DNA of 64,000 nucleotides from Brachycybe producta (taxonomy: Eukaryota; Arthropoda; Diplopoda; Playtdesmida; Andrognathidae): positions 2,636,058 through 2,700,057 of the forward strand of contig JAUPFP010000026.1 in assembly GCA_036925085.1 (NCBI GenBank), written 5' to 3'. A program made the position numbers and the translations under genes. Positions 2,821 to 57,758 of the stretch are shown here, piece after piece (position 1 is the first letter of the stretch; each line of letters opens with the position of its first letter). Under the pieces are notes generated by a model. That model ran no database searches. It saw only the letters and a program-made list of their open reading frames with translations, and was not told where the DNA came from.

Positions 2821-4790
2821 CATTTACATACATGCGCGCATGTGTACACACAAGTACACATGTGTGCGCATGCGTATGCACATGTACACGCTTGTGCGCA
2901 TGTATACACACATGTACACTTGTGCATGTGTATGCACATGTACACACGTGTGTGCATGTGTACGCACATGTACACACTTGTGCACATGTGTATGCACATG
3001 TACACACTTGTGTGCATGTGTGCGCACGTGTACACACTTGTGTGCATGTGTGCACACATGTACACACTTGTGTGCATGTGTGCGCACGTGTACACACTTG
3101 TGTGCATGTGTGTGCACGTGTACACACTTGTGTGCATGTGTGCGCACGTGTACACACTTGTGTGCATGTGTGTGCACGTGTACACACTTGTGTGCATGTG
3201 TGCGCACGTGTACACACTTGTGTGCATGTGTGTGCACGTGTACACACTTGTGTGCATGTGTGCGCACGTGTACACACTTGTGTGCATGTGTGCGCACGTG
3301 TACACACTTGTGTGCATGTGTGCGCACGTGTACACACTTGTGTGCATGTGTGCGCACGTGTACACACTTGTGTGCATGTGTGCGCACGTGTACACACTTG
3401 TGTGCATGTGTGCGCACGTGTACACACTTGTGTGCATGTGTGCGCACGTGTACACACTTGTGTGCATGTGTGCGCACGTGTACACACTTGTACACACTTG
3501 TGTGCATGTGTGCGCACGTGTACACACTTGTGTGCATGTGTGCGCACGTGTACACACTTGTGTGCATGTGTGCGCACGTGTACACACTTGTGTGCATGTG
3601 TGCGCACGTGTACACACTTGTGTGCATGTGTGCGCACGTGTACACACTTGTGTGCATGTGTGCGCACGTGTACACACTTGTGTGCATGTGTGCGCACGTG
3701 TACACACTTGTGTGCATGTGTGCGCACGTGTACACACTTGTGTGCATGTGTGCGCACGTGTACACACTTGTGTGCATGTGTGCGCACGTGTACACACTTG
3801 TGTGCATGTGTGCGCACGTGTACACACTTGTGTGCATGTGTGCGCACGTGTACACACTTGTGTGCATGTGTGCGCACGTGTACACACTTGTGTGCATGTG
3901 TGCGCACGTGTACACACTTGTGTGCATGTGTGCGCACGTGTACACACTTGTGTGCATGTGTGCGCACGTGTACACACTTGTGTGCATGTGTGCGCACGTG
4001 TACACACTTGTGTGCATGTGTGCGCACGTGTACACACTTGTGTGCACGTGTGCGCACGTGTACACACTTGTGTGCACGTGTGCACACGTGTACACACTTG
4101 TGTGCACGTGTGCACACTTGTGTGCACGTGTGCGCACGTGTGCACACTTGTGTGCACGTGTGCGCACGTGTACACACTTGTGTGCGCACGTGTACACACT
4201 TGTGTGCATGTGTGCGCACGTGTACACACTTGTGTGCATGTGTGCGCACGTGTACACACTTGTGTGCATGTGTGCGCACGTGTACACACTTGTGTGCATG
4301 TGTGCGCACGTGTACACACTTGTGTGCATGTGTGCGCACGTGTACACACTTGTGTGCATGTGTGCGCACGTGTACACACTTGTGTGCATGTGTGCGCACG
4401 TGTACACACTTGTGTGCATGTGTGCGCACGTGTACACACTTGTGTGCACGTGTGCGCACGTGTACACACTTGTGTGCACGTGTGCGCACGTGTACACACT
4501 TGTGTGCACGTGTGCGCACGTGTACACACTTGTGTGCACGTGCGCACACGTGTACACACTTGTGTGCACGTGTGCGCACGTGTACACACGTGTGCGCACG
4601 TGCGCGCACGTGTACACACGTGCGCGCACGTGCGTGCACGTGTACGCACGTGCGCGCACGTGTGTGCACGTGTACGCACGTGCGCGCACGTGTGTGCACG
4701 TGTACGCACGTGTGCGCACGTGTGTGCACGTGTACGCACGTGTGCGCACGTGTGTGCACGTGTACACACGTGAGCATGTGCATGTATTCA
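2821..4790. repeat. 30-bp satellite, alternating purine-pyrimidine
   Basis: About 66 tandem copies of a 30-bp unit made of TACACACTTGTGTGCATG followed by TGTGCGCACGTG. The centre is nearly perfect, while both edges are degenerate and shade into (CACGTGTG)-like units. Because 30 is a multiple of 3 and the unit contains no stop in any frame, all six frames are open for about 2 kb. These are repeat artefacts (Cys, His, Thr and Val only), not genes. The unit holds a CACGTG palindrome and long alternating purine-pyrimidine runs. Confidence 0.95.
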
Positions 4791-9735: not shown

Positions 9736-9845
9736 TAATATTTTTGTTTTGTTCCAATCAATAATATTCAATCCTTTCTGTTTATGTTTTCATGATAATA
9801 TTGCTTTTTATTTGAAAATTATCCCCCCCCCCAAAAAAAAAAAAT

Positions 9846-12800
9846 ATGTTTGAAGTGCAATTTCTACTTCTATCATGTGGTGCTGTTTTTTCATATGGAC
9901 TTGGAATTCAGGAGGTTCCTAATTTGCCACACAGTTGCTCGGCATTGTTTAAAAGAAACAATTTTGTTGTTTGTGAAGGATATTTTCCGAGCTTTAAAAC
10001 TGTTTCCGAAGAAGGGAAATCTGTGATTGAAAAGCTTCGAATTCAACACTGTAGATATTCAAGTATAAAAAACGATAGTCTTGCAGGACTGACTAATTTG
10101 AACCAACTAGAAATAATGTGTGAATTTAACGGATTAAATGGCGGCGAACTGACGGTAGAAAATGGGTCTTTTCAAACACTGGTTAGTCTGTTTCAACTTA
10201 CGATCAACAACGGTGGCTTCACTTCGATTTCTGATGTTGCCTTTTGCAACATTTCAAATCTACACATTCTCAACTTGCAATATAACAATATTGAAAGTCT
10301 AAGGAATGTTGGTTTGCGGCATAACTGCAGCGGCGGCAGCAGCCATCTTGGAAAGGATCATCACAGTAGAAATAATTTCCATAAATTGGATTTATCCTAC
10401 AATTCAATAAGGATAATTCCAAACGAGACTTGGCTTTGTGACGTGCCAAATCTTCGGATTTTGAACTTTGCAAACAATAACATCGATGACATTCAACCGA
10501 GAGCTTTTTCTAGCCTCGGTCAGGTAACGATGTTGGATTTTCGTCACAATTTCCTCACCTACATTTCATCCGATGCCTTTGATGGATTATCAAGACTATC
10601 ATATCTGGATTTATCTCACAATCGTCTGACTTCTGGCAACATCGAGAAGGACGCCTTTCAACACCTGCGAGCACTGAGCGTTCTACGTTTTACGAACAAC
10701 TACCTTTCGAGTATCGACGGAATGTTCGACGGTCTCGAGGAATTGGAATCTATTAGTCTGAACAGTAATCGAATAAGAAATTTAAATGTAAATGTGTTTG
10801 CCAAGATGAAAAGTCTTTTTCAGCTAATTGTTCTGAACAACATGCTGGACGGTATTGCAGAAAATGCTTTGCCAATAGGAATGACGGATCTATCGCTTCA
10901 ATTAAACAATATATCGGATCTGAAATTTCTTCGTGGTTGCTCGTCTCTGGAATATTTGTTCTTGTCAGATAATCAGATTGAGGTATTGAATGATGGTGAG
11001 AGTCTGTCGGATTTGACGAAACTTCTCGAGTTACATCTGGATGGCAACCACATCGAAACATTCGAAAGTTTCGTATTTGTAAACTTGTCCAAACTGAAAA
11101 TATTGAATTTGTCTCGCAATCAAATTGTAGTTATTGCGGATGATGCATTTCGTTATTTAGTCGGTTTGGTGGAACTTCGATTGGACTGCAATAATGTCAC
11201 TTTATTAACCGACAAGCTTGAAACTCGAACCGACGTAGTAACTTTTAACCATCTTGACAAACTTGAATCGTTGAATTTATCCCATAATCACCTGTCGTTA
11301 TTCAGTATCAAGTGGTTGCCATATTCCTTGAGGAATTTGTATGCAAACAACAACGAAATTTTTCAAATTCAGGATGTTGGAGTCATTACTGCGGATAGTT
11401 ACGCGTCGCTACGTTACGTGGATTTATCGTTTAATAAGTTAACTCTGTTCAGTTTGACGTGCATTCCTGCGAAAATCGAAGAATTGCTATTAAACAACAA
11501 TGAATTAATGTTTCTACCGCCACTGACCTTTGTCAAGTTGTACAATCTGAAACAATTGTCTTTCAGTAACAATAGTCTGAGTCGAATAAGCAAACTGAGC
11601 TTTCCTGAACGAGATTCAAAACCAACTGTTAGTAGACTCGTTACGCTTGCAGGAAATCCGTTTCGTTGTGATTGTAACCTCCAGTGGCTGGTAGACATGG
11701 TGGCAGTTTCAGTAGAAAAAACTACGGGAATTGTTGTTCAAGATGCGGCCAACCTGATGTGCACTCAGCAGTTGTATTGGAATATTCGTAACACTTCTCG
11801 TGTGAAAATTTATGATTTAATATCGGATATTGAACAATTTTTATGCCGGTTTTATACGATATGTTCAGAAACACCAAATAATGTATGTACCACTATTTGT
11901 CCGCTCGAGTGTGCCTGCTACCGCAGTGAAAATTGGCTTTTGATCAGTGTTGTCTGTTCTTCGACGTTCTTGTCGGATGTTCCGAGAACATTTCCAGACA
12001 TCACTACCCATTTGTACCTCGACAATAACAACATCACTCGTGTCGGTCCGCAAGACTTCGAGAATGCCAATTACCTTGTAAAATTAAACATGGAGAGAAA
12101 TGGTTTGCAAGAAATTGCCGAGGGAACATTTGAGAAAATGGAAAAACTTCTTATTTTACAACTTGCGAATAATTCGCTGACAATGTTGTATTCGAATATA
12201 TTTGAACATTTAACGGAACTTCAAGAGTTGGATCTGTCTCATAATCAAATATCAAGTTTAGCAGAATCCATCTTTGATAAACTAAAACAGTTGAAGGTTT
12301 TATGTTTGCATCACAATCTGCTGAAAACATTTCCAGTCTGGAAACTGTCACAGAATTTGCCATTTTTGTTTAAACTTAGTTTGCATCAAAATCCTTGGAG
12401 TTGTGATTGTACTTATGCTGAAACATTTGCTGATTGGTTAGTTAACGTTGAACCTATTGTTAAGCAAACTCAAAATATATATTGTATTACCGAAAGTCAA
12501 CAAACTCAAAAAATATCTCTTCTAGCTTTTAATGCATCCCATTGTTATAATTCTTCTGTGACAATGAATATTATAAGTGAAATTTATGTTCCGTTTATAG
12601 GATATTCTGTGTGTGTCATTGTTATAGTTGTGGTTGTTGCAATTTTGACATTTGTCTATCGACATGAGATGCAAATTTTAATTTATTCGCGTTACGGAGT
12701 AAGGTTGTTTTACAAGAACAATGACAAGGACGATGAAGGAAAAATCTACGACGCCTTCATTTCGTACACGAGTCTGGATGACGAATTTCTTGTCCGCGAA

Positions 12801-13205
12801 CTTCTTCCAGGTTTGGAGAACATCGAGAACCCATATCGACTTTGTCTCTACCATCGAGATTTTATGCCGGGTTCGTACATTCAAGACAGCATCTTGGAAG
12901 CGGTGTCCAAAAGCCGTAGAACAGTCCTACTTCTCACGCAGAACTTTGTAGAGAGTGAATGGTGTCGATTTGAGTTTAAGGCGGCACACCTGCAAATGCT
13001 TAAAGATCGAAGGAACCGTGTCATTGTACTTCTTATTGGTGAAATTCCTAACAAGCTAGATGATGAAATGAAACTCTACCTAAAAACCAACATTTACCTT
13101 ACGTGGGGAGAAAAACTGTTCTGGAAAAAACTCTACTTTGCTCTTCCAGAAAAAAATATTCAAGTACAAGAAGACGGTGTATTGATGGAAGAACATGCCG
13201 TATAG
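9846..13205 (+). CDS. Toll-like receptor A (mccTLR type)
   Basis: Single-exon ORF of 1119 aa encoding a membrane pattern-recognition or Toll receptor. Residues 1-17 form a signal peptide (FLLLSCGAVFSYGLG). Leucine-rich repeats run from about 70 to 600 (for example LDLSYNSI, LDLSHNRL, LNLSRNQI). A first LRRCT starts at NPFRCDCNLQWL (604), followed by an LRRNT (CPLECACY, 685), more repeats (720-845) and a second LRRCT at NPWSCDCTYAETFADWL (849). The transmembrane helix is at 914-937. The TIR domain spans 966-1103, with box 1 YDAFISY, BB loop RDFMPGS with its proline, and box 3 FW at 1092. Two LRRCT modules with an internal LRRNT are the protostome or Drosophila-Toll arrangement. Signalling through a MyD88-like adaptor is inferred from the family. 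The ATG follows an A-run, and its context matches that of TLR-B. No intron is needed from signal peptide to stop, although a 5'UTR intron cannot be excluded. Confidence 0.95.
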   Translation: MFEVQFLLLSCGAVFSYGLGIQEVPNLPHSCSALFKRNNFVVCEGYFPSFKTVSEEGKSVIEKLRIQHCRYSSIKNDSLAGLTNLNQLEIMCEFNGLNGGELTVENGSFQTLVSLFQLTINNGGFTSISDVAFCNISNLHILNLQYNNIESLRNVGLRHNCSGGSSHLGKDHHSRNNFHKLDLSYNSIRIIPNETWLCDVPNLRILNFANNNIDDIQPRAFSSLGQVTMLDFRHNFLTYISSDAFDGLSRLSYLDLSHNRLTSGNIEKDAFQHLRALSVLRFTNNYLSSIDGMFDGLEELESISLNSNRIRNLNVNVFAKMKSLFQLIVLNNMLDGIAENALPIGMTDLSLQLNNISDLKFLRGCSSLEYLFLSDNQIEVLNDGESLSDLTKLLELHLDGNHIETFESFVFVNLSKLKILNLSRNQIVVIADDAFRYLVGLVELRLDCNNVTLLTDKLETRTDVVTFNHLDKLESLNLSHNHLSLFSIKWLPYSLRNLYANNNEIFQIQDVGVITADSYASLRYVDLSFNKLTLFSLTCIPAKIEELLLNNNELMFLPPLTFVKLYNLKQLSFSNNSLSRISKLSFPERDSKPTVSRLVTLAGNPFRCDCNLQWLVDMVAVSVEKTTGIVVQDAANLMCTQQLYWNIRNTSRVKIYDLISDIEQFLCRFYTICSETPNNVCTTICPLECACYRSENWLLISVVCSSTFLSDVPRTFPDITTHLYLDNNNITRVGPQDFENANYLVKLNMERNGLQEIAEGTFEKMEKLLILQLANNSLTMLYSNIFEHLTELQELDLSHNQISSLAESIFDKLKQLKVLCLHHNLLKTFPVWKLSQNLPFLFKLSLHQNPWSCDCTYAETFADWLVNVEPIVKQTQNIYCITESQQTQKISLLAFNASHCYNSSVTMNIISEIYVPFIGYSVCVIVIVVVVAILTFVYRHEMQILIYSRYGVRLFYKNNDKDDEGKIYDAFISYTSLDDEFLVRELLPGLENIENPYRLCLYHRDFMPGSYIQDSILEAVSKSRRTVLLLTQNFVESEWCRFEFKAAHLQMLKDRRNRVIVLLIGEIPNKLDDEMKLYLKTNIYLTWGEKLFWKKLYFALPEKNIQVQEDGVLMEEHAV

Positions 13206-18977: not shown

Positions 18978-19293
18978 AATTCAGGTTTTGACTGTAACCC
19001 AATACCTGTATATGTAATAAAAGATATTCTTATCCAAATAAATATGAGCGTATTTACTTGTAAATATAAGAGATAAAAGTTCAGCACCGTGAGAAGGCGG
19101 CGAGTCTAATTCGATGCTTAAATATATGGATCATATTGTACTAATGATATTATGTAGAAATGTAAAAAATAAATGCCATTATCAAATACATGTATATTGG
19201 TGCATATCGAACATTTTGCACGTTTCTTTTTTTTTTAATGTAATTGTGGCGAATTTTGGGTTATATAGTTTTATTTTACGCGAAAAATAAAAT

Positions 19294-22200
19294 ATGTGGA
19301 AAGTGCAACTTTTATTTATTACATTATGTGTCGTTGTTTTACTCGGAGGAACTATTAATGTTGTCCAGTGTTTACCACCCGGTTGTTCTCCCCTTTCTGA
19401 TTCCGATCGGAATGTTAAATGTGTCGGATCAATTCCTAATTTCAATGAGTATCGAAACGAATCATTTCTGATGATAGAAGATCTCACCATTTTAGATTGT
19501 AAATATTCTTGCATCAAAAATGACAGTTTTATCGGATTAACCGAAGTAACGATTATTGATATAACGTGTCAATTTGACGGATTTAACAGTTCGAAACTTT
19601 TAGTTGAAAGAAATTCTTTCAATTCACCAAATTTTTTAAGTGTACTTAAAATTAATAACGGTGGTTTCACTTCTGTTTCACCGTTTGCTTTTTGCAATAT
19701 TTCTCAAATGTCTCTTCTCGACCTGAAACAAAACAATATCAGTAGCTTAACTGATATTGGATTGGCTCAAAACTGCAAGGAACAAAAACAGTACTGCCGA
19801 AATGTATTGTCTGAAATAAATCTTTCGTACAATTCTATAAGTATCATTCCTAATGACACTTGGTTATGTCACATGCCGAGACTGTTATATTTAGATTTGG
19901 CTTACAACAACATTGATGATATTCATCGAGGTGCTTTTTCTAATCTCAAAATTATCGATCTCGATTTGAGCCACAATCGTTTAAGTTCGATTTCGCCTGA
20001 TGTGCTTTGTGTATTATATAATTTAGAATCTTTGGATTTGTCTGGAAATGATTTGAAACGTTTCTTAAAGGAGGAAACAGCAACATCCAATCAAAGTTTA
20101 TTTCGCTGTTTTTCAAAGCTTGAAGTACTCATTTTGTCTGATAATAGAATAGAATTTCTGGATGATGATGATGATAGTTTTGCAAACTTGACTCAACTTG
20201 CCAAGTTACGTTTGGATGGCAATCGAATAAAATCCTTTGAAGGTTCTGTCTTTTCAGGATTAATTAATCTAATGAATTTAGATCTGTCTCGAAACGAAAT
20301 TTTCATCATCCATGACGATATGTTCAAATATTTGCCAAATGTCTTAGAAATCAGATTGGACTGCAATCAAATAACTGCGTTGACAAATAAATCGGAAATT
20401 TCTAAAAATGTTGTAGTGGCTTTTAAAATCCTTAAGTCCATGGAATCATTGAATTTGTCTTACAATCAAATAACACTGTTTAGCATTAGATGGTTACCTC
20501 GATCTTTGAGGTATTTGTACATAAGCAATAATTATATTCAGAAACTTGAGAACTTTGGATTTATTCCACTTACATGGTATTTTTTACTGAAACACATAGA
20601 TTTGTCATACAATAACTTGACATTGCTATTTCATTCTAATATGATTTCCGAACAAATCGAAGAGCTTCACTTAAACAACAATCAAATTAATTTAATTCCG
20701 TATCAACTTCTGTTTCTGCCTTCCTTAAAACGATTGTATTTACATAATAATAACATAAGCAATATAACAAGAGAGAATTTTCAGAAAAACATGACCTTAC
20801 CAAATGCCAGAGAGGTAACACTAGCTGACAATCCGTGGCATTGTGACTGTCATATCAGATGGTTTCTAGATGTCATCATCCTTAATGCCAAACCCGATTT
20901 TAGAGATGCTTCGAGACTTACTTGCACTCAAGAATTACGTCAAAATATTCACTCTAATTCTCCTGTTAACATGCTAGAAGAAGCAGATAGACCAGAAGGA
21001 TTTTTATGCCATTATAACTCTTCTCTTTGTCCATTTCGTTGTACTTGCTATCATAGTAAAATCTCGAGTTTGGTTAGTGTTAGTTGTACGTCAAAGGCGT
21101 TATTGGAAGCTCCTTCTGAGTATCCGAAAAATACTAAATATCTTCACCTCGATTACAATAATATTAGAATAATTCGATTACAGAATCTTGAAGAAGGTTT
21201 AGATTCTTTGGTGGAACTGAATTTGCAGGGAAATGGTTTAGAAGAAATCGAAAAAGGAACATTTGACAAAGTGACAAAACTGGTGACTTTACAACTGTCG
21301 GATAATTCACTGACAATGTTACATCCCAATTTATTCGAACCTCTAGCAATGCTTCAAACATTGGATCTGTCACGAAACCGAATATCGAGTTTGTCAGAAT
21401 CCATTTTTGATGGATTAAAACAATTAAAAACGTTACATTTGCATAACAATATGTTGGTAAAATTCAAAGTGTGGACATTGTCACAAAGTCTACCATCTTT
21501 GTCTAAACTCAGTTTGCATCAAAATCCATGGAGTTGTGATTGTGATTATGCGATGCAATTTGCTGAATGGTTATTGAATGTTAATTATCTTTTTGATGTT
21601 GTTGATATTGACTGTATTACTGATGAGAAATATTCTCAAAGAATTTCTCTTCTCGCTTTTAATGCTTCTCATTGTTATAATTCGACAATCACCATGAATG
21701 TTATGAAAGAAAAATATGTCACCATTTTAGTTTGTTCTCTTGTTATGCTTTCTGTTATTGTAATTGTGTCGGTTGTGATTTTTATTTATCGTCGCGAAAT
21801 GCAAGTTTTGATTTATTCACGTTACGGCGTAAGGATGTTTTACAAGAACAATGACAAGGACGACGAAGGAAAAATCTACGATGTCTTCGTCTCGTACACG
21901 AGTCTGGATGAAGAATTTCTTGTCCACGAACTTCTTCCGGGTTTGGAGGACATCGAGAACCCATATCGACTGTGTCTCTACCATCGGGATTTTATGCCGG
22001 GTTCCTACATTCAAGACAGCATCTTGGAAGCAGTTTCCAAAAGCCGAAGAACTATTCTACTTTTAACGGAAAACTTTGTCAAAAGTGAATGGTGTCGTTT
22101 CGAATTTAAGGCAGCACACATGCAAATGCTTAAAGATAAACGAAGTCGTGTTATAATCATTCTTATTGGTGAAATTCCTAAAGAAGTAGATGCCGAAATG

Positions 22201-22338
22201 AAGCTTTACCTTAAGACAAACGTTTACCTCTTATGGGGAGAAAAATTATTCTGGCAAAAACTTTACTTTGTTCTTCCCGAGAAAAACGTTGTTATACATG
22301 AAGAAAACATAGGATTGGTTCGAGAACATGCTATGTAA
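19294..22338 (+). CDS. Toll-like receptor B (mccTLR type)
   Basis: Single-exon ORF of 1014 aa, a paralogue of TLR-A in the same orientation 6 kb downstream. The signal peptide is about residues 1-26 (LLFITLCVVVLLGG). LRRs run from about 70 to 510, LRRCT1 starts at NPWHCDCHIRWFLD (513), LRRNT at CPFRCTCYHS (579), LRRs 615-740, and LRRCT2 at NPWSCDCDYAMQFAEWL (744). The transmembrane helix is 808-831. The TIR domain spans 860-997 with YDVFVSY, RDFMPGS and FW. It is 105 residues shorter than TLR-A because several LRRs corresponding to about 240-345 of TLR-A are absent. An Asp run (DDDDDS, 290) is a GAT microsatellite within an LRR. The start was chosen as the first Met before the hydrophobic stretch; its context aligns with TLR-A. 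ATTAAA three bases after the stop is a possible but very early poly(A) signal. Ligand unknown. Confidence 0.95.
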   Translation: MWKVQLLFITLCVVVLLGGTINVVQCLPPGCSPLSDSDRNVKCVGSIPNFNEYRNESFLMIEDLTILDCKYSCIKNDSFIGLTEVTIIDITCQFDGFNSSKLLVERNSFNSPNFLSVLKINNGGFTSVSPFAFCNISQMSLLDLKQNNISSLTDIGLAQNCKEQKQYCRNVLSEINLSYNSISIIPNDTWLCHMPRLLYLDLAYNNIDDIHRGAFSNLKIIDLDLSHNRLSSISPDVLCVLYNLESLDLSGNDLKRFLKEETATSNQSLFRCFSKLEVLILSDNRIEFLDDDDDSFANLTQLAKLRLDGNRIKSFEGSVFSGLINLMNLDLSRNEIFIIHDDMFKYLPNVLEIRLDCNQITALTNKSEISKNVVVAFKILKSMESLNLSYNQITLFSIRWLPRSLRYLYISNNYIQKLENFGFIPLTWYFLLKHIDLSYNNLTLLFHSNMISEQIEELHLNNNQINLIPYQLLFLPSLKRLYLHNNNISNITRENFQKNMTLPNAREVTLADNPWHCDCHIRWFLDVIILNAKPDFRDASRLTCTQELRQNIHSNSPVNMLEEADRPEGFLCHYNSSLCPFRCTCYHSKISSLVSVSCTSKALLEAPSEYPKNTKYLHLDYNNIRIIRLQNLEEGLDSLVELNLQGNGLEEIEKGTFDKVTKLVTLQLSDNSLTMLHPNLFEPLAMLQTLDLSRNRISSLSESIFDGLKQLKTLHLHNNMLVKFKVWTLSQSLPSLSKLSLHQNPWSCDCDYAMQFAEWLLNVNYLFDVVDIDCITDEKYSQRISLLAFNASHCYNSTITMNVMKEKYVTILVCSLVMLSVIVIVSVVIFIYRREMQVLIYSRYGVRMFYKNNDKDDEGKIYDVFVSYTSLDEEFLVHELLPGLEDIENPYRLCLYHRDFMPGSYIQDSILEAVSKSRRTILLLTENFVKSEWCRFEFKAAHMQMLKDKRSRVIIILIGEIPKEVDAEMKLYLKTNVYLLWGEKLFWQKLYFVLPEKNVVIHEENIGLVREHAM

Positions 22339-46539: not shown

Positions 46540-47768
46540 CGAATCCTGAATTTTCTCGAATCCGAATCGTAAATTTTCTCGAATCCGAATCCTAAATTTT
46601 CTCGTATCCGAATCGTAAATTTTCTCGAATCCGAATCCTAAATTTTCTCGAATCCGAATCGTAAATTTTCTCGAATCCGAATCCTAAATTTTCTCGAATC
46701 CGAATCCTAAATTTTCTCGAATCCGAATCCTAAATTTTCTCGAATCCGAATCCTAAATTTTCTCGAATCCGAATCCTAAATTTTCTCGAATCCGAATCCT
46801 AAATTTTCTCGAATCCGAATCCTAAATATTTTCGAATCCGAATCCTAAATATTTTCGAATCCGAATCCTAAATTTTTTCGAATCCGAATCCTAAATTTTC
46901 TCGAATCCGAATCCTAAATTTTCTCGAATCCGAATCCTAAATTTTCTCGAATCCGAATCCTAAATTTTCTCGAATCCGAATCCTAAATTTTCTCGTATCC
47001 GAATCCTAAATTTTCTCGAATCCGAATCCTAAATTTTCTCGAATCCGAATCCTAAATTTTCTCGAATCCGAATCCTAAATTTTCTCGAATCCGAATCCTA
47101 AATTTTCTCGAATCCGAATCCTAAATTTTCTCGAATCCGAATCCTAAATTTTCTCGAATCCGAATCCTAAATTTTCTCGAATCCGAATCCTAAATTTTCT
47201 CGAATCCGAATCCTAAATTTTCTCGAATCCGAATCCTAAATTTTCTCGAATCCGAATCCTAAATTTTCTCGAATCCGAATCCTAAATTTTCTCGAATCCG
47301 AATCCTAAATTTTCTCGAATCCGAATCCTAAATTTTCTCGAATCCGAATCCTAAATTTTCTCGAATCCGAATCCTAAATTTTCTCGAATCCGAATCCTAA
47401 ATTTTCTCGAATCCGAATCCTAAATTTTCTCGAATCCGAATCCTAAATTTTCTCGAATCCGAATCCTAAATTTTCTCGAATCCGAATCCTAAATTTTCTC
47501 GAATCCGAATCCTAAATTTTCTCGAATCCGAATCCTAAATTTTCTCGAATCCGAATCCTAAATTTTCTCGAATCCGAATCCTAAATTTTCTCGAATCCGA
47601 ATCCTAAATTTTCTCGAATCCGAATCCTAAATTTTCTCGAATCCGAATCCTAAATTTTCTCGAATCCGAATCCTAAATTTTCTCGAATCCGAATCCTAAA
47701 TTTTCTCGAATCCGAATCCTAAATTTTCTCGAATCCGAATCCTAAATTTTCTCGAATCCGAATCCTAA
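46540..47768. repeat. 23-bp satellite, about 53 copies
   Basis: The unit is GAATCCGAATCCTAAATTTT plus CTC. The first few copies vary (GAATCGTAAATT), as do three in the middle (AATATTTTCG, 46823-46870); the rest are identical. It ends in CCTAAAAGGTTCTCGAATC, the same string that follows the few units in the copy at 34859. Confidence 0.95.
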
Positions 47769-47861
47769 AAGGTTCTCGAATCTCACGAATCTCGAATCCT
47801 TCATATAAGAATCCTATATTATTCATTAAGAAGATACAAATAAATGAATTAATATTAAATT

Positions 47862-50014: not shown

Positions 50015-50470
50015 TTAATATTCATATTTAATATAATATGTTCAATTTTATTATGTATTACATATTTTATTATATATAAAATATTTTAATATAACTATAA
50101 TATTAATTATTGTAATTTATTATTTAATAAATAATAATAAAATTAATTAATAAAATTTAATAATATTTTTATAACAATAATTAATTAATCAATAAGAAAT
50201 AATGATCTTCTTCTGGAAGATTAATTATTAATTAATTTAATTTAATTAATTAATTATAAAAATAATAATATAAATAAGTTAATATAATTAAATTTTTTGC
50301 ATTATATATTTTATTATAACAATATTTTATCATGACATTTTTTTATTCACATATCAAACAATAATCACATTAAAAATTACAAACATATTAAAAAACAAAA
50401 CAAATATCTATCAAAATAAAAATTAATACAAGTCAAACAGAAAAAAAAAATAGAAATATTAAAGTACTAT
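50015..50470. other. AT-rich, no gene
   Basis: Extremely AT-rich sequence (ATTAATTAATTTAATTT patches) directly before the LTR element. Confidence 0.6.
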
Positions 50471-51360
50471 TGAAACGATCAGTCCAGGAGCGCTCCTGGC
50501 TCACTTAGTTTTTTGTGGATCGTTTGTTTTTGTTTTTGAATTGGCCTGGAACTTTGTCAACCCTCTGTACTGATGTACAGAGGATTGACCTAGTTCTCTC
50601 AGCTGACAATGCCAATATCCTGTCTTGGGTCACCTCTTGGGTCTTGGGTCTTTTTCTCTCCCAGTCCCACCCCTTAATACAAAAAGATCATGCTGATAAG
50701 CAGTAGCATTAAGTCAATGGGGTTGTATTTTTCTTGGAAAATTATTGTTTTTAAAGGATGAATCATATTTCTATATTTTGGTGACCACTGGTCAATCAAA
50801 TTGATTGGCCAGTTTGGTTTTTCATTTCGATTTTGCCCAATCAGAGAATACTGAGAAATGGTTCTCAGTATCCTCTTTTTGGGTATAAAAGGCCGTGTAT
50901 TTTTGTGTAAATGAAGAATTCACTGAAGCACTCTTGAGACAACGAATCTATGCTCAAGTTTGTTCAGAGAGAACAGTCTTTTTAAAGACTAGAATGGAAT
51001 TGTAAATAAACAAATGGTATACTTTAAAAATTGCCAAGTCTTATTTCTTATATTTATGGAGAGAACGGAAGTTCTGAAATCATCTTCATCTCGAATTATC
51101 AATCCGGGTGAAAACCCGGATCAACACTTCTAGATGCAACTTCAAGGGACAGCACGATCAACTAGCTTTTAACGGGCGAAAGCCCGAGGGGTAGCAGACA
51201 GCTAAAAGATCCATTTTACTGTAAAAGTTCAACAAGGAAGAACTTGTGAGGAATAGGAAAAGGGATTAATTTGTTCCCTTCCTCCCGAACCAGGATAAAA
51301 TAAGCGGCTTAGCCAACCGCTTTTTGGTATATTTTATCCACCACAAGGTGGTTCGTTACA
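50471..51360 (+). repeat. 5' LTR
   Basis: 890 bp. A perfect 16-bp palindrome CCAGGAGCGCTCCTGG lies near the start (50483). TATA box TATAAAAGG at 50884 and AATAAA at 51005 define a short R region of roughly 50915-51025. U5 contains three short GC hairpins (CCGGGTGAAAACCCGG, GGGCGAAAGCCC, AAGCGGCTTAGCCAACCGCTT). It ends CCACCACAAGGTGG-TTCGTTACA. Confidence 0.95.
50884..50892 (+). promoter_or_regulatory. TATA box of the 5' LTR
   Basis: TATAAAAGG in a GGGTATAAAAGGCC context, about 120 bp before AATAAA. The same site is in the 3' LTR at 56945. Confidence 0.8.
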
Positions 51361-51361
51361 A

Positions 51362-51382
51362 ATTTGGTGGAGGAGCTGGGCA
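51362..51382 (+). promoter_or_regulatory. Probable primer binding site
   Basis: Directly after the 5' LTR comes a TTTGGTGGAGGAGCTGGGC segment. TGG a few bases after the LTR fits pairing with a tRNA 3' CCA end. Which tRNA is not determined. Confidence 0.55.
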
Positions 51383-51461
51383 GTTGAACAACTTGTTACT
51401 CCGTAAGCTACGAAAATCGTGTTGAAAAACACGCGGCAGAAAGAAAACATCGACGTCAGAA

Positions 51462-52886
51462 ATGACCAGTCTACAGAAACTACTCAAGGACTTGAGGGAT
51501 CTCGAGAGACTGAGGGAGGAACGACGTCGAAAGAAGAAAACTGCTGCGTTGAAAAGGATCGTGAAGAGGCAACGTACTCAACTGGAGGAGGCCAAGGAGG
51601 AAACCGAAGTACTTCCACCAACTCCTGTTGCTGTCAAGCCTGAGGTGCAGTCCAATGATGGAAGCAAGACGCCAGAACACGCCGCCATTGCTGACATCAT
51701 TGGGAAACTGTCTAAGGAAAAACAGGATGAATTGGTTCGTCAAATTCTGGGCGACGAACGAAGCGAGAAGAGAGCGGGCTCGACCAACACTGAATTGGAA
51801 TCGATCGAACCCGGGCGAAAGCCCGGTCCGGATGAAACTACCAAATGGACACCGGACCTGGGACCTACGCCATACTCTGAGAGGAATTCGTTACATCCTC
51901 TGCAGGGATTCCCGAAATACGAAGGCGACGAGAACATCCTTCTCTATGTGGAAGAATTCGAAGACATCGCTACCGCACATGACTGGAACTCCCTGCAGCG
52001 ATGCAGACACTTCACAGGGCTCTTACGGAAGCGTGCAATAAAATGGCTTGCACACTTCCGCTCTGCTTACGAGGGACAAGAGATCACCTGGTCGATTATG
52101 AAGGAGGGAATCATTGCCGAATTTCTCCTGCCGGACCAAAAAGTCCGCATGAATCGAGAGTTGATTGAGAGGCGCCAGCAAGACCACGAAACTTTCAGGG
52201 TCTATGCTGAAAAATATGCAGAGATGTATCGAAGGATTCACCCAAATGATGATGAATCTTTGCTGATAGCTACGCTCCGAAAGAGTCTGCTACCAGCACT
52301 TCGAAAACATCTGTATGGGGCGCCAAAGGATCGGTATCACGAGTTCATTCGCTTCACCACTCAAACTGAAGGTGAACTCGTTGATGAAAAGGAGTTGATT
52401 TACAAAAACTCGGCTGGAACTACAACCAAAGCGGGCGCAAGCCAGCCGAATCGAGCAAATCAACAAAGTCAACCAAAGGTATCAAGCGGACAAGACACGG
52501 TGTCGAATCCGCCTGAAAAGGCTGACAATCAAGGACCGAGACGGACAGACAAGGAACATCAAAACAGACAGAGAACTCCTTGGAACAAAAATCAGGGGCC
52601 GCTCATCTGCTACCGATGTTGGGAGGCGGGCCACATGGGTCGTGACTGCCCAAATCCTGCTAGAACAAAACCGGAACAAGGAAGGAGCGTTGCTGCGGCT
52701 ACACCGACACCTGTAAACAGAGTCGACGAACCGTTGGCAACGACGGCGACGCAAGTTTCAAATACTGTCGAAGTTTACGAAACTCACGTCCTGCCAAATG
52801 GTATGAGACTGGTGCCTGTCGACATCAATGGGGTGACGCACTATTTTCATGAGGAAAATCTGACCAAAGAGGCTTTAAACTTCTAA
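51462..52886 (+). CDS. gag: Gag-like protein with CCHC zinc knuckle
   Basis: 474 aa. A basic coiled-coil-like N-terminus (LERLREERRRKKK) precedes a linker. The retrotransposon Gag capsid-like region is at about residues 150-300 (LLRKRAIKWLAHFR, IIAEFLLPDQKVRMNRELIE, ETFRVYAEKYAEMYRR), matching the pattern of Ty3/Gypsy-type Gag. A CX2CX4HX4C knuckle, CYRCWEAGHMGRDC, lies at 383-396. It would form the RNA-packaging particle. The start is the first ATG after the primer site in this frame. The last codons overlap the -1 reading frame and contain the slippery heptamer, so most product would end at TAA 52884-52886 and a minority would extend into ORF2. Confidence 0.92.
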   Translation: MTSLQKLLKDLRDLERLREERRRKKKTAALKRIVKRQRTQLEEAKEETEVLPPTPVAVKPEVQSNDGSKTPEHAAIADIIGKLSKEKQDELVRQILGDERSEKRAGSTNTELESIEPGRKPGPDETTKWTPDLGPTPYSERNSLHPLQGFPKYEGDENILLYVEEFEDIATAHDWNSLQRCRHFTGLLRKRAIKWLAHFRSAYEGQEITWSIMKEGIIAEFLLPDQKVRMNRELIERRQQDHETFRVYAEKYAEMYRRIHPNDDESLLIATLRKSLLPALRKHLYGAPKDRYHEFIRFTTQTEGELVDEKELIYKNSAGTTTKAGASQPNRANQQSQPKVSSGQDTVSNPPEKADNQGPRRTDKEHQNRQRTPWNKNQGPLICYRCWEAGHMGRDCPNPARTKPEQGRSVAAATPTPVNRVDEPLATTATQVSNTVEVYETHVLPNGMRLVPVDINGVTHYFHEENLTKEALNF

Positions 52887-52918
52887 GGGCGCCACTCAGC
52901 CCCAAAGTAGTGACGCCC
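52874..52918 (+). promoter_or_regulatory. -1 ribosomal frameshift signal
   Basis: The slippery heptamer TTTAAAC (52874-52880) is in the right phase for Gag (codons TTA AAC). A 6-nt spacer contains the Gag stop. Then comes a stem of GGGCGCCACT (52887-52896) with AGTGACGCCC (52909-52918), ten pairs with one mismatch and a 12-nt loop. The -1 frame is open from 52853, so the overlap available for shifting is only 34 nt and holds this heptamer. The layout matches canonical retroviral and retrotransposon frameshift signals. Confidence 0.88.
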
Positions 52919-55840
52919 GAAACTGAAACGATTACGGAAAAGGATAATGGAAAAATCGAAGTCAACTTGGAGAGTCATCAGGGAGTCCAAGCTGCAACTC
53001 GGCAAAAAAGGGAAGTCTCCGAGCAACCATGCGTTATGTGCATCGAGGTTCGACAGGAGGGATCTATAGGGGAACCCACAGACCTGTGCCAAAATGACCG
53101 ACATACGGTGCCTGCAAAGAAACAAAAAGGAAGCCAAGCTGTAGCACGACAAATAGCCTCAACAAAACTGACATCGAAAAAGGAAATTGCAGTTGGAATC
53201 GAAAGTCGTATCATCCATGGGGGAGGTCAACTCAAGAAACCACTGCAAAATGGGGCCGTCAAGACATTAAAAGGAAACGTCGAAACTAAGCCCTTCAGGG
53301 AACAGGAGTCAGTGAAAAGGAAAGTAGCTGCTCCTGTAAAGGAACAGGAGTTAGTGAAAAAGGAAGTAACTGCTCCTGTAAAGGAACAAAATGGGAACTT
53401 TGCAACTGGCCTCAGAAGTTGTAGCGTCTATAGGGGATGCCAACCAACAGTGTCACTGCAAAGTGGGCTCATCGAGACATCTAAGGTGGATGTCATGGTG
53501 CGGTCCAATGGGAAACAGGTTGCAGTGAAGCTAGGAGTAGCTGCTCCTGAAAAAGGAGAGGAACATCTTCATAGGGAAGAAACGCCTCGAAACAAAAAGT
53601 TCCAGGGTGGAACTAAAAAGGAGCATCTTTATAGGGAAGATGCGAAAATGGAAAAGTGTCAGGGTGGCACTAAAGATGATCAGGGTGGTCATCAAAAACG
53701 AAAGGAAACCACGGACAGGATGTCCAAAAAGGAATTCTGGAAAAAGACACGCGGGCAGGCCGAAAATATCTCTATAGGAGAGACATCTACAGCCTCCCGT
53801 GTGCAAACACGGGTAGGAACAACGATTGAGAACGTTAAAACTCAATCGACTCCTAAAAAGGAACAATTTGGCGTTAAAAATCCATCAAACGATGAATTAA
53901 CGTCCAAATTGTGTAAAGGAGAGGCCAAAATTCAAATTTGCCGCTATATGGAGCGCCGCCTGGTGGGAGAAAAAGGAGGAAGAGACTTTTTGGGTAAAAG
54001 CTCCTCCCACTTCCGGCCGGAAATTGAATTTGTAAGCCCCACAGGATCACGTGAGAAGACAACCGCCATTTTGGACGCCACTTCGAATTGTGATTCTGCA
54101 AAGAATAGTCGCGTGTCGAGTTTTTTCAAAAAGAAAAAAGTGTCAGCGTCTAAAAAGGGAATAATCAGAAAGAGGATGGCTGGATTCATAGATAAGGGAG
54201 CATCTGGGACCGGAGAAGCATCGGAACTAGAAATATTAATGGACACCGGCGAAATGACGCCGGAATGGCTGAGACTTCTATTTGGAGAAGACGACGACGA
54301 CAACGCCATCGCTGCAGGAATCCCTTCCGGCAGCAATGCCGTGCCTTCGTCGCCTGCTAAGGAAAAAGCCAAGGAACCTTCCAAAACGAAGAAAAGGAAG
54401 CAGCCAGAGGGTGAGCTAGTCAATTTTGTGCCGTTAATACATTCTCCTCCCGGGCAGCGTAGAAGCGGCAACCCAGAGCCGGAGATCGTTTATGAAGGGC
54501 CCGCCAGGGACCCAACACTGCAATTTCCAAGGCCTCCAGAGGAAATGGATACTCCACCCGGGAGTCTACATGATGGATGTCTGCCAGCAGAGCTAGGGGG
54601 CTCTCGTAGGAGTGGCCGGACGAAAGGCGAAAGGAACGCCGACAAGAAGGCCATGCGTGATTGGATAGATGGACAGAACAAGGAACTTGCGGCTAGGGGT
54701 CGGTCCCCAATTAAGGTGCCAGCAATTGGAACAGCGCTACCGAAAAGGACAACGCCAAGAGACGTCTCCCCTTCCAACAGCTGGGTCACGGTGGACCAAC
54801 CAATCGTCAGAGGGTACGTTCATCAACCTAATCAACCTTTAAAATTGTCTGGGGCGATGGAGAGGGTCTCCATCGCTTCTAAAGTTGTAGAACCGAGGAG
54901 AGACGCTCATCCGCCAGCGGTGAGCAATCCCGCTCGGCTCAACAGGGAAAAATTCGTTGCTGAGAGGCCAAGGGACCCAAGACGCCAAGGAGACGTCACA
55001 AGAAGTCAGCCTCAAGAGGAACAAAGAACCAGACCAAGGGAGGAGTCAAGGGACCCACCAAGGAGATCCGAGACGGCCAGAATCCAGCCATTTCGCCATC
55101 CCCACATACCTGGACAGGCCAGGAAAGGACAAGGTGCAACAGAGAGGAGGAGGGAACGTCGTGACCAGATCTTCGCAGGGGAACGCGGGCATCCAAGCCG
55201 ACCAGCGCCTGGACCACCCACGGGAGCGATCCCGAAGGTCTCTCCACCACCACCTCCTCAACAATGGCCAAAGGACCGACTGGATATGTCGGATGGAAAG
55301 CTTTCCAACCGACAGCAATTTCGGCTCCTAAGGAACGGTTTGGTGTCTTTTGGGCGTCGCTGGGGAAGAAATGTATTCAGGTATTTAGGTTTCTTCCACA
55401 GTGACGATGGCATTAAGGAAGATCGACTCCGTCCGCGACTGGACCGGCCCTGGACTGCAGTAATCATTCAGGTTTTAGATCATTGGCCCGTCGTTGTCCT
55501 TCATGACAACGCCGAGCCAGGGACGCTTCAACTCATCTACCCGCAGCCTTGGGACAAGTCGACAAGTAACATCCTGGAAGTGGTCATCTCTTCGATGGTA
55601 GCGACCCTGATCCCCAGTAGCCGAGGACACCGCAACGTGGTTCATCATCGACTCAAGGAGCAGGATGGGAATGTGCATCTGGCCACTCAACAACTGGACT
55701 TCATGGAGTCCATCATATTGGGAGCAATCCCACGGTCACAAGTCGTTCCCCTTAGGATGTTGGAGGACCTTAACATCCTTTCAACGGAGGCGGAACCAGG
55801 AGCCAGAGATCAGCAGGGACATCTCGAGCCGGACCACTAG
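52880..55840 (+). CDS. ORF2, unknown protein in the Pol position
   Basis: Open in the -1 frame relative to gag. No ATG is near its beginning, so expression by frameshift is the natural reading, giving about 986 residues after the shift. The N-terminal third is Lys/Glu-rich with short internal repeats (APVKEQE twice near residues 150-170; a KxQGGTKKEHLYRED-like unit twice near 230-265). A CVMC...C...H cluster lies near residue 50. The middle is Pro/Arg-rich and probably disordered. The last 170 residues (from about DRLDMSDGKLSNRQQ) look globular, with YLGFFHSDD, WTAVIIQVLDHWPVVVLHD and IILGAIPRSQVVPLRML. I recognise no family. A lone DTG at about residue 453 lacks protease context. No YxDD box, no HHCC or DDE integrase motif. 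Confidence 0.82.
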   Translation, partial: LLRAPLSPKVVTPETETITEKDNGKIEVNLESHQGVQAATRQKREVSEQPCVMCIEVRQEGSIGEPTDLCQNDRHTVPAKKQKGSQAVARQIASTKLTSKKEIAVGIESRIIHGGGQLKKPLQNGAVKTLKGNVETKPFREQESVKRKVAAPVKEQELVKKEVTAPVKEQNGNFATGLRSCSVYRGCQPTVSLQSGLIETSKVDVMVRSNGKQVAVKLGVAAPEKGEEHLHREETPRNKKFQGGTKKEHLYREDAKMEKCQGGTKDDQGGHQKRKETTDRMSKKEFWKKTRGQAENISIGETSTASRVQTRVGTTIENVKTQSTPKKEQFGVKNPSNDELTSKLCKGEAKIQICRYMERRLVGEKGGRDFLGKSSSHFRPEIEFVSPTGSREKTTAILDATSNCDSAKNSRVSSFFKKKKVSASKKGIIRKRMAGFIDKGASGTGEASELEILMDTGEMTPEWLRLLFGEDDDDNAIAAGIPSGSNAVPSSPAKEKAKEPSKTKKRKQPEGELVNFVPLIHSPPGQRRSGNPEPEIVYEGPARDPTLQFPRPPEEMDTPPGSLHDGCLPAELGGSRRSGRTKGERNADKKAMRDWIDGQNKELAARGRSPIKVPAIGTALPKRTTPRDVSPSNSWVTVDQPIVRGYVHQPNQPLKLSGAMERVSIASKVVEPRRDAHPPAVSNPARLNREKFVAERPRDPRRQGDVTRSQPQEEQRTRPREESRDPPRRSETARIQPFRHPHIPGQARKGQGATERRRERRDQIFAGERGHPSRPAPGPPTGAIPKVSPPPPPQQWPKDRLDMSDGKLSNRQQFRLLRNGLVSFGRRWGRNVFRYLGFFHSDDGIKEDRLRPRLDRPWTAVIIQVLDHWPVVVLHDNAEPGTLQLIYPQPWDKSTSNILEVVISSMVATLIPSSRGHRNVVHHRLKEQDGNVHLATQQLDFMESIILGAIPRSQVVPLRMLEDLNILSTEAEPGARDQQGHLEPDH

Positions 55841-56523
55841 ACGGAGGACCAGGACCGAAAAAGGACCAGCATGGACCAGTTCCGATCCACGCTGAGGAAA
55901 CCAGAGGAACGAGTCAGCGAGGAAGCGTAATTTTTCAAATTGTTTTTATTTTTAATTTTTGGGGTTAAAAGAAAAATAAGGGGTTTCTTTTTAAAAGTTA
56001 AAATTTTGAATTTTCGTTTTCTTTTGGGGGTTTTAAAATCTGTTTTAATTTGTGGGTTAGAAATTTAATTTGGGGCCAAATTAATTTCTTTTAAAACATT
56101 TTTTTTAGGGGGAGGGTTAAAAAGGGTTTAACCTTCCGTTAACTTTGTTTTTAATTAGTCAGGGTTTTTGGGAGGGAGATGGAATTTAAATTAAAGTTCG
56201 TGGATACGTTTTTCTTTGTATATTTATCGATGAAAAAGATATAGGTTATTTTTAAATTTTTTCTGTATTTTGGGTATGTTCTAGTCGAACTTAAATACAA
56301 ATTTGATGGGGGTAAATTGATTTTCGGGGGTCTAAGGGATTTCAGGGTTACAAATCAACTGTGATGAGTCAAATTGAAACCTGTGATATTGTTTTTATTG
56401 GTACAAATTGTATATTTTTATTTTTGGTTATGCAAAGTGAAAATTTTTCAAAAAGGGATTTGTTTTTGACTTAATGTGGCTGCTTACCAGTGTGAAGTTC
56501 AGGGACGAACTTCATGCTTAGTT
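55841..56523 (+). other. 3' untranslated part of the LTR element
   Basis: T-rich and G-patchy sequence with no ORF above 60 codons. Such a long non-coding stretch between the last ORF and the polypurine tract may be a remnant of a deleted region or hold packaging signals. Confidence 0.6.
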
Positions 56524-56531
56524 GGGGGGGG
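56524..56531 (+). promoter_or_regulatory. Polypurine tract
   Basis: Eight G residues directly before the TGAAACG start of the 3' LTR. Position and composition fit the plus-strand primer. Confidence 0.75.
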
Positions 56532-57421
56532 TGAAACGATCAGTCCAGGAGCGCTCCTGGCTCACTTAGTTTTTTGTGGATCGTTTGTTTTTGTTTTTGA
56601 ATTGGCCTGGAACTTTGTCAACCCTCTGTACTGATGTACAGAGGATTGACCTAGTTCTCTCAGCTGACAATGCCAATATCCTGTCTTGGGTCACCTCTTG
56701 GGTCTTGGGTCTTTTTCTCTCCCAGTCCCACCCCTTAATACAAAAAGATCATGCTGATAAGCAGTAGCATTAAGTCAATGGGGTTGTATTTTTCTTGGAA
56801 AATTATTGTTTTTAAAGGATGAATCATATTTCTATATTTTGGTGACCACTGGTCAATCAAATTGATTGGCCAGTTTGGTTTTTCATTTCGATTTTGCCCA
56901 ATCAGAGAATACTGAGAAATGGTTCTCAGTATCCTCTTTTTGGGTATAAAAGGCCGTGTATTTTTGTGTAAATGAAGAATTCACTGAAGCACTCTTGAGA
57001 CAACGAATCTATGCTCAAGTTTGTTCAGAGAGAACAGTCTTTTTAAAGACTAGAATGGAATTGTAAATAAACAAATGGTATACTTTAAAAATTGCCAAGT
57101 CTTATTTCTTATATTTATGGAGAGAACGGAAGTTCTGAAATCATCTTCATCTCGAATTATCAATCCGGGTGAAAACCCGGATCAACACTTCTAGATGCAA
57201 CTTCAAGGGACAGCACGATCAACTAGCTTTTAACGGGCGAAAGCCCGAGGGGTAGCAGACAGCTAAAAGATCCATTTTACTGTAAAAGTTCAACAAGGAA
57301 GAACTTGTGAGGAATAGGAAAAGGGATTAATTTGTTCCCTTCCTCCCGAACCAGGATAAAATAAGCGGCTTAGCCAACCGCTTTTTGGTATATTTTATCC
57401 ACCACAAGGTGGTTCGTTACA
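56532..57421 (+). repeat. 3' LTR
   Basis: 890 bp, identical to the 5' LTR wherever I compared (offset 6061). TATA box at 56945 and AATAAA at 57066. The 63-codon ORF present in both LTRs (MDRLFLFLNW...) is identical but has no recognisable function. Confidence 0.95.
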
Positions 57422-57553
57422 CTATGACGTAGAAATATGGCGTCGCTCTCGTTTGGGGCGGGGGCGTCTTTGAGCTATCATCACACCTGTTTCTCTACAA
57501 ACCTTGATTTACCCCTTTTGATCCTAATTATAATATGTCAGCCAGGCATGGGA

Positions 57554-57758
57554 ACAGGCATTTAGAAATCGGGACGAACACAAGTTGGCTCCGCCCTTTT
57601 TATGACGAAATCAACTTCTATTTGGTTGGTTATGTAGTCTGACGTCACATGCTCCGCCGTTTTCAACGTCGAACCACACAACAAACCAATTAGAAGTTGC
57701 CGGTCGTCATAAAACGGGCGGAGCCAACTTGTGTTCGTCCCGATTTCTAAATGCCTAC
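57554..57758. mobile_element. Family C MITE, cleanest copy
   Basis: 205 bp. The arms ACAGGCATTTAGAAATCGGG, ACGAACACAAGTTGGCTCCG and CCC are mirrored to within a few bases. The flanks GGCATGGGA (57545-57553) and GGTATGGGA (57759-57767) agree at 8 of 9. The centre holds TAGTCTGACGTCACATGCTC and GTCGAACCACACAACAAACC. Confidence 0.9.

Follow-up and report, generated by a model that had tools for sequence, protein, structure and literature searches.

A Ty3/gypsy-type element of Brachycybe producta with an enzyme-free frame in the place of Pol

The question raised by this locus is what a long terminal repeat (LTR) retrotransposon can carry in the place of Pol. The element lies in a 64,000-nucleotide stretch of the Brachycybe producta genome (assembly GCA_036925085.1, contig JAUPFP010000026.1, positions 2,636,058 to 2,700,057 of the forward strand), which we call the window. 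An initial annotation had described it as a young LTR element in which Gag is followed, in the -1 frame, by a long open reading frame (ORF2) of unknown nature instead of Pol. We compared the element with further copies of its own family (A), with a sister family (B) and with a Pol-bearing family (D) of the same genome. With a probability of roughly 0.86, we read it as a semi-autonomous Ty3/gypsy-type element that descended from D or an ancestor of D, lost the enzyme block of Pol in frame and would receive its enzymes in trans.

ORF2 and the Pol frame of family D

A Pfam scan of ORF2 gave no match at E<=1, and none of the enzymes of the gypsy order (protease, reverse transcriptase (RT), RNase H and integrase) was matched; its C-terminal 184 residues returned a single match (E 0.084), which falls well short of the profile's cut-off. 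The profile search for a degenerate RT or integrase, set beforehand, found neither. Residues 780–995, the C-terminal alignment and the D tail had no match at E<=1 in the protein collection, and ORF2 patterns had none in the viral contigs searched. Sequence searches of solved structures returned a single chance-level match (E 1.7 and 0.2). Two AlphaFold2 models were of low confidence (predicted local distance difference test, pLDDT, 42.5 and 35.5), and a fold search with the first gave no match at E<=0.001.

The origin of ORF2 becomes apparent from family D. In one D copy, a 3.2-kb stretch (L101) is a single open frame that contains the integrase core (rve, E 4.8e-9) and then a tail that aligns with ORF2 residues 315–994 at 42% identity (E 3e-134). 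Where Gag and Pol meet in that copy (L103), the end of Gag is 61.5% identical to residues 427–478 of the element's Gag, and the start of the post-shift frame aligns with ORF2 residues 7–177 at 34% identity (E 4e-16). Because ORF2 resembles the D Pol frame at its start and at its end, and follows the same frameshift site, it appears to be Pol without its enzymes; in the simplest reading it consists of the N-terminal linker of Pol and the tail that comes after the integrase. Since the homology found to the pieces of D covers these two parts, the junction would lie somewhere in residues 178–314. The frame is thus as enzyme-free as had been noted, and what fails is the notion of an unknown substitute for Pol. 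That an unrelated gene, captured or new, replaced Pol is hardly credible; the empty searches of Pfam and the protein collection would suit such a gene, but the homology of both ends to the ends of D Pol, behind the same frameshift site, contradicts it.

A search with the C-terminal part of ORF2 (window 55250–55837; 150 of 369 candidates scored) gave, in addition to copies of A and B, 29 D tail matches among those listed, with 44–45% identity (E ~1e-40) over residues 19–195 of the query, 16 of them in open frames of 2052–2207 amino acids. A D leader site lies 6.5–9.5 kb upstream on the same strand for 20 of these 29 (40 leader sites used), and one further tail match pairs with one of six primer sites picked by eye. 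An aspartic protease domain is encoded at L096, which by eye has a D-like LTR end and leader and is 86.5% identical over 289 residues to L099; the latter also has a D-like LTR end and leader, and its end is what we take to be the start of RT. Copies of D recognised by LTR end and leader are 99–100% identical (40 of 40 scored, from 1047 candidates), and D has therefore spread recently too. The LTR end and leader of D weakly resemble those of B (88% over 42 bases) and A (76% over 89 bases).

A further family, C, was considered as a relative and left unused: its tail domain looks alike, the profile comparison was not significant (P ~0.1) and its LTR start differs. This family is abundant (150 scored copies of 1675 candidates; for example L078 and L079, the latter at G000:C19:1317400-1322100). 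Its integrase end leads into an uninterrupted tail, at least 1400 residues long; the scanned pieces of L078 matched protease, RT and RNase H and gave no integrase match.

We also considered that the C-terminal domain of ORF2 might be a degenerate Ulp1-type (C48) cysteine protease, as the order of strands and helices judged by eye and an HWPVVV stretch might suggest. ORF2 has no Pfam C48 match, however, a genome-wide C48 search led to 30 places, none of them at any listed A, B or D tail, D has GYP instead of HW at the equivalent place, and both structure models are of low confidence. Such an origin is improbable, and it was dropped on the profile evidence and the alignment with D. A KKRK stretch is found in the tail of both ORF2 (position 513) and D (position 557 of the L101 frame), and D carries GRPKK after the integrase (Pfam AT_hook E 0.52, under cut-off); these stretches may weakly hint at nuclear or DNA binding.

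Anatomy, copies, selection and the frameshift signal

The structural hallmarks of Ty3/gypsy-type elements are present (Table 1): paired LTRs with TG..CA termini, a short target-site duplication, a primer-binding site, a polypurine tract and a Gag of the Retrotrans_gag kind (Pfam E 2.4e-6; zf-CCHC E 1.7e-4). Judged by these features and the missing enzymes, the element is a derivative of a Ty3/gypsy-type LTR retrotransposon and no complete member. The zinc knuckle and the youth attributed to it were both borne out, the two LTRs being equal at 890 of 890 bases. By eye, TATAAA (~50884) and AATAAA (~51005) lie inside the 5' LTR.

Table 1. Features of the element, in window coordinates
Feature	Position	Strand	Remark
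Target-site duplication, left copy	50467..50470	.	CTAT, 4 bases repeated at 57422-57425
5' LTR	50471..51360	+	TGAAAC..GTTACA, 890 bp
Primer-binding site	51365..51382	+	TGGTGGAGGAGCTGGGCA
Gag	51462..52886	+	Retrotrans_gag, CCHC zinc knuckle; frame open from 51426, first ATG 51462
ORF2	52853..55840	+	995 codons, -1 frame; probable Pol frame without enzymes; stop codon 55838-55840
-1 slippery heptamer	52874..52880	+	TTTAAAC
Predicted frameshift-stimulating hairpin	52887..52918	+	-14.0 kcal/mol
ORF2 residues 7-177	52871..53383	+	pre-protease linker of Pol, by homology to the D post-shift start
ORF2 residues 315-994	53795..55834	+	post-integrase tail of Pol, by homology to the D Pol end
ORF2 residues 812-995	55286..55837	+	most conserved C-terminal domain
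Polypurine tract	56524..56531	+	GGGGGGGG
3' LTR	56532..57421	+	890 bp
Target-site duplication, right copy	57422..57425	.	CTAT

The element is young and present in many copies, and it has a diverged sister family that is built alike. A search of the 295-Mb assembly with ORF2 scored 46 of 2202 candidates and yielded 73 matches; the copy numbers are therefore lower bounds. Family A comprises at least 21 matches over at least 970 of the 995 residues, which have 85–98% identity or are the window copy itself, and family B at least 18 places with 66–72% identity and frames of 1021–1064 amino acids. No internal stop interrupts 18 of the 21 A and 16 of the 18 B frames, though the genome also contains many old, broken ORF2 copies. 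When ORF2 was mutated at random with 0.30 changes per site, about the difference between A and B, it acquired 26 stops on average (minimum 12 in 200 runs), and openness by chance is therefore excluded.

Both LTRs are present in 19 of the 20 A copies fetched. The pairs have no mismatch in 11 copies, one in 4 (among them a pair that also has 66 gap positions), two in 2, and five and nine in one copy each. The flanking four bases match in 13 of the 19 (ATAT 8, CTAT 3, TTAT 1, CTGT 1), the ATAT flanks often lying within AT repeats. Between A and B, the LTRs show 206 differences in 852 aligned bases and a further 86 gap positions, so that the two are well-separated families; the order of gag, slip site and ORF2 in a B copy (L029) is the same as in A. 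Two A elements (L011 and L022, G000:C26:3023051-3036448) stand in tandem with three LTRs, the middle one common to both.

The separation of A and B as old lineages and the many old broken copies would also agree with the reversed order of events, in which the gag-ORF2 build came first and D later acquired its enzymes within ORF2. We consider this very unlikely, because the loss of one block is simpler than the ordered gain of four enzymes and because Ty3/gypsy elements in general have a Pol that carries enzymes.

ORF2 is under purifying selection. Among 19 A sequences (the window and 18 of the 20 fetched), the ratio of nonsynonymous to synonymous substitution rates (dN/dS) is 0.214 over 171 pairs, which are not independent. 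The ratio is 0.67, 0.50 and 0.63 for residues 13–130, 131–300 and 301–470, and 0.11, 0.26, 0.13 and 0.10 for residues 470–640, 640–811, 812–977 and 978–995. For Gag it is 0.14 (153 pairs), with stops after the ATG in two of 18 copies (L014 and L026). Between the window and L029, dN/dS is again 0.214 over the whole of ORF2 and falls to 0.023 in residues 812–995 (pS 0.72, pN 0.05), a rough value given that dS is near saturation. Random mutation as a neutral control gave a dN/dS of about 1, and the lowest value for the C-terminal domain among 500 runs was 0.50. Preservation of ORF2 as a nucleic acid, for packaging or length, could account for its weakly constrained first half; it is nevertheless scarcely believable, since the excess of synonymous over nonsynonymous differences in residues 812–995 is a mark of selection on the protein and since the copies do not conserve the frame beyond the stop codon. 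For the latter reason, readthrough of the ORF2 stop was rejected as well.

ORF2 overlaps the end of Gag by 34 nucleotides (52853 to 52886) in the -1 frame. The heptamer TTTAAAC is kept in the window, in all 25 loci L009–L033 and in D, and the hairpin stem is identical across the window, L029 and L103; one A copy (L025) has a single stem change and a predicted fold of -12.3. An in-frame X XXY YYZ heptamer, a short spacer, a stable downstream structure and conservation are all found, at the level of sequence and predicted fold, and the canonical signal reported by the initial annotation is thereby located and conserved among copies. The element would accordingly produce its own Gag together with a minor Gag-linker-tail fusion by -1 frameshifting at this site. 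That this fusion is of importance, as had been proposed, gains support from the selection on the intact frame and the conserved module.

Elsewhere in the window, an inverted repeat (57556–57608 and 57704–57756; 53-nt arms, 98% complementary, 95 nt apart) sits about 130 bp beyond the 3' end of the element. There are two LRR-TIR (Toll-like receptor) genes, each long and contained in a single frame (9816–13205 and 19291–22338), a tandem array of a 30-bp unit repeated 65 times with all six frames open (2838–4780) and another of a 23-bp unit repeated 54 times with 98% match (46540–47782).

Proposed enzyme supply and derivatives without the C-terminal domain

Every one of the 19 A copies that have both LTRs contains the primer core TGGTGGAGG. 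The site differs among these near-identical copies (window 51365–51382 and L009–L028), with at least three continuations after the constant core, which suggests that several tRNAs may serve as primers. The variant of the window copy is shared by the D-type loci L083 and L088. A pattern of the A/B LTR end plus primer core has 109 genomic occurrences; about 27 of 100 listed sites lack an adjoining Gag match by eye, and 11 of 20 such Gag-less sites probed have ORF2-like sequence, mostly broken. With another base preceding the core there are 362 occurrences, and the reversed-pattern control gave 0 in both searches. Among 100 listed sites of this second kind, all three variants of the A copies are included, and the LTR ends at 15 of them are of the D type in 7, of the L080 type in 3 and others in 5.

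The search for a Pol-bearing partner led to D, which has integrase, tail and the same primer-binding site. As ORF2 matches no enzyme profile, the element would have to parasitise the enzymes of another, as had been suspected. We suppose that a complete, D-like ancestor lost the block from protease to integrase in frame, leaving the pre-protease linker joined to the long post-integrase tail. Its Gag part would bring the fusion into the particle, protease, RT and integrase would be provided in trans by D-like elements with the same primer-binding site, and particles holding the Gag-Pol of D, or of another family, would copy and integrate the element's RNA. The donor could indeed be another same-primer family, which is compatible with a D-like origin. 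At L080, L082 and L084 the LTR end GTTACA, like that of the element, is followed by AAA and the primer site, and 2.5 kb beyond the L080 site a member of the same family (L095) encodes a protease domain; the 362 alternative-base sites would likewise leave room for such donors. The shared tail, Gag end and frameshift module have been shown for D only, the L080 family not having been compared, and we regard a donor other than D as possible yet unlikely.

Some elements have dispensed with the most conserved part of ORF2. The C-terminal domain follows 2.0–5.5 kb downstream at 64 of 88 Gag places (91 rows) and was not found there at the other 24, three of which read N in that stretch. Twenty probes 2.3 kb beyond Gag met a B-type LTR in 11 cases (BLAST), ORF2 in 6, ORF2 and then N in 1 and only N in 2. 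Two B copies (L055 and L056) have an in-frame deletion of the domain that leaves 547 amino acids; a third (L054, G000:C1:10492300-10500300) has a similar deletion out of frame, leaves 544 and has an identical pair of LTRs of ~900 bp. The domain is therefore dispensable in cis, and it could be supplied in trans.

Several points weigh against the descent and the supply proposed here. The recent movement of a domain-less B derivative means that any benefit of the domain does not act in cis. Of the 29 listed D tail matches, 13 lie in shorter frames, and the Pol of D is known from pieces of several copies, with protease and tail in different ones; the stretches read exclude RNase H and most of RT, and these pieces hold no counterpart of ORF2 residues 178–314. 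Moreover, the D LTR ends in TCACA and that of the element in TTACA, and the primer site also occurs in further families, of which at least one (L080/L095) has a protease domain, a point that bears on the choice of donor.

Within our reading of a D-derived element, the non-enzymatic ends of Pol may constitute a working protein in their own right, a tail module fused to Gag that might act in assembly, nuclear entry or targeting. Families A and B would then contribute Gag and tail to a particle pool shared with D, and the tail-less B derivatives would exploit all of them. We offer this tentatively, as it is doubtful; if true, the genome would house a community in layers, with one complete element and incomplete ones of two kinds.

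Relation to known elements and implications

LTR elements without Pol enzymes are familiar from plants as TR-GAG and LARD, the former with Gag; we know of no conserved second frame in either. The closest known system is RLG_Quinta of wheat which, in the passages of the source available to us, has neither RT nor integrase, an intact GAG and a domain of unknown function (DUF1), is split into lineages A and B, and is proposed to be mobilised by the autonomous RLG_Cereba with an identical primer-binding site (PMC11302176). Our element shares Gag with an extra part, the lack of RT and integrase, recent movement, a Pol-bearing family with the same primer-binding site and two lineages. In contrast to RLG_Quinta as described there, its host is an animal and the extra part follows a frameshift signal and is encoded in the -1 frame; selection on this part was measured, and it is homologous to both ends of another family's Pol, whereas those passages state no origin for DUF1, which may be a later acquisition. 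RLG_Sabrina_SA of wheat, termed semi-autonomous, has Gag and part of Pol (protease) and lacks RT and integrase according to the text at hand (PMC9744471); it thus keeps an enzyme, whereas in our element none was found and the non-enzymatic ends remain. TelKA2n of a bdelloid rotifer is presented, in the portion seen, as a non-autonomous LTR family in which most of pol is gone and a downstream env-like ORF is kept (PMC5408684). Our element differs from TelKA2n in having a complete Gag, and what it retains is the tail of Pol, read in the Pol frame. By this analogy, the window element belongs with the semi-autonomous LTR elements as what appears to be a new variant of the RLG_Quinta-like build. 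Among the papers listed by our searches of the open-licence literature, we found no report of an animal LTR element that keeps only the non-enzymatic ends of Pol.

Pol is usually viewed as a chain of enzymes. The element represents a natural deletion experiment, in which the enzymes appear to be gone, the frameshift signal and the ends of Pol are kept and the C-terminal domain is strongly selected; this suggests a separable job for the non-enzymatic part of the polyprotein. With the Pol-bearing D, the enzyme-less A and B and the domain-less B derivatives, the genome holds matched sets for finding what the tail does. Furthermore, the locus carries a warning for annotation, since a seemingly unknown reading frame at the place of Pol can be Pol minus its recognisable parts.
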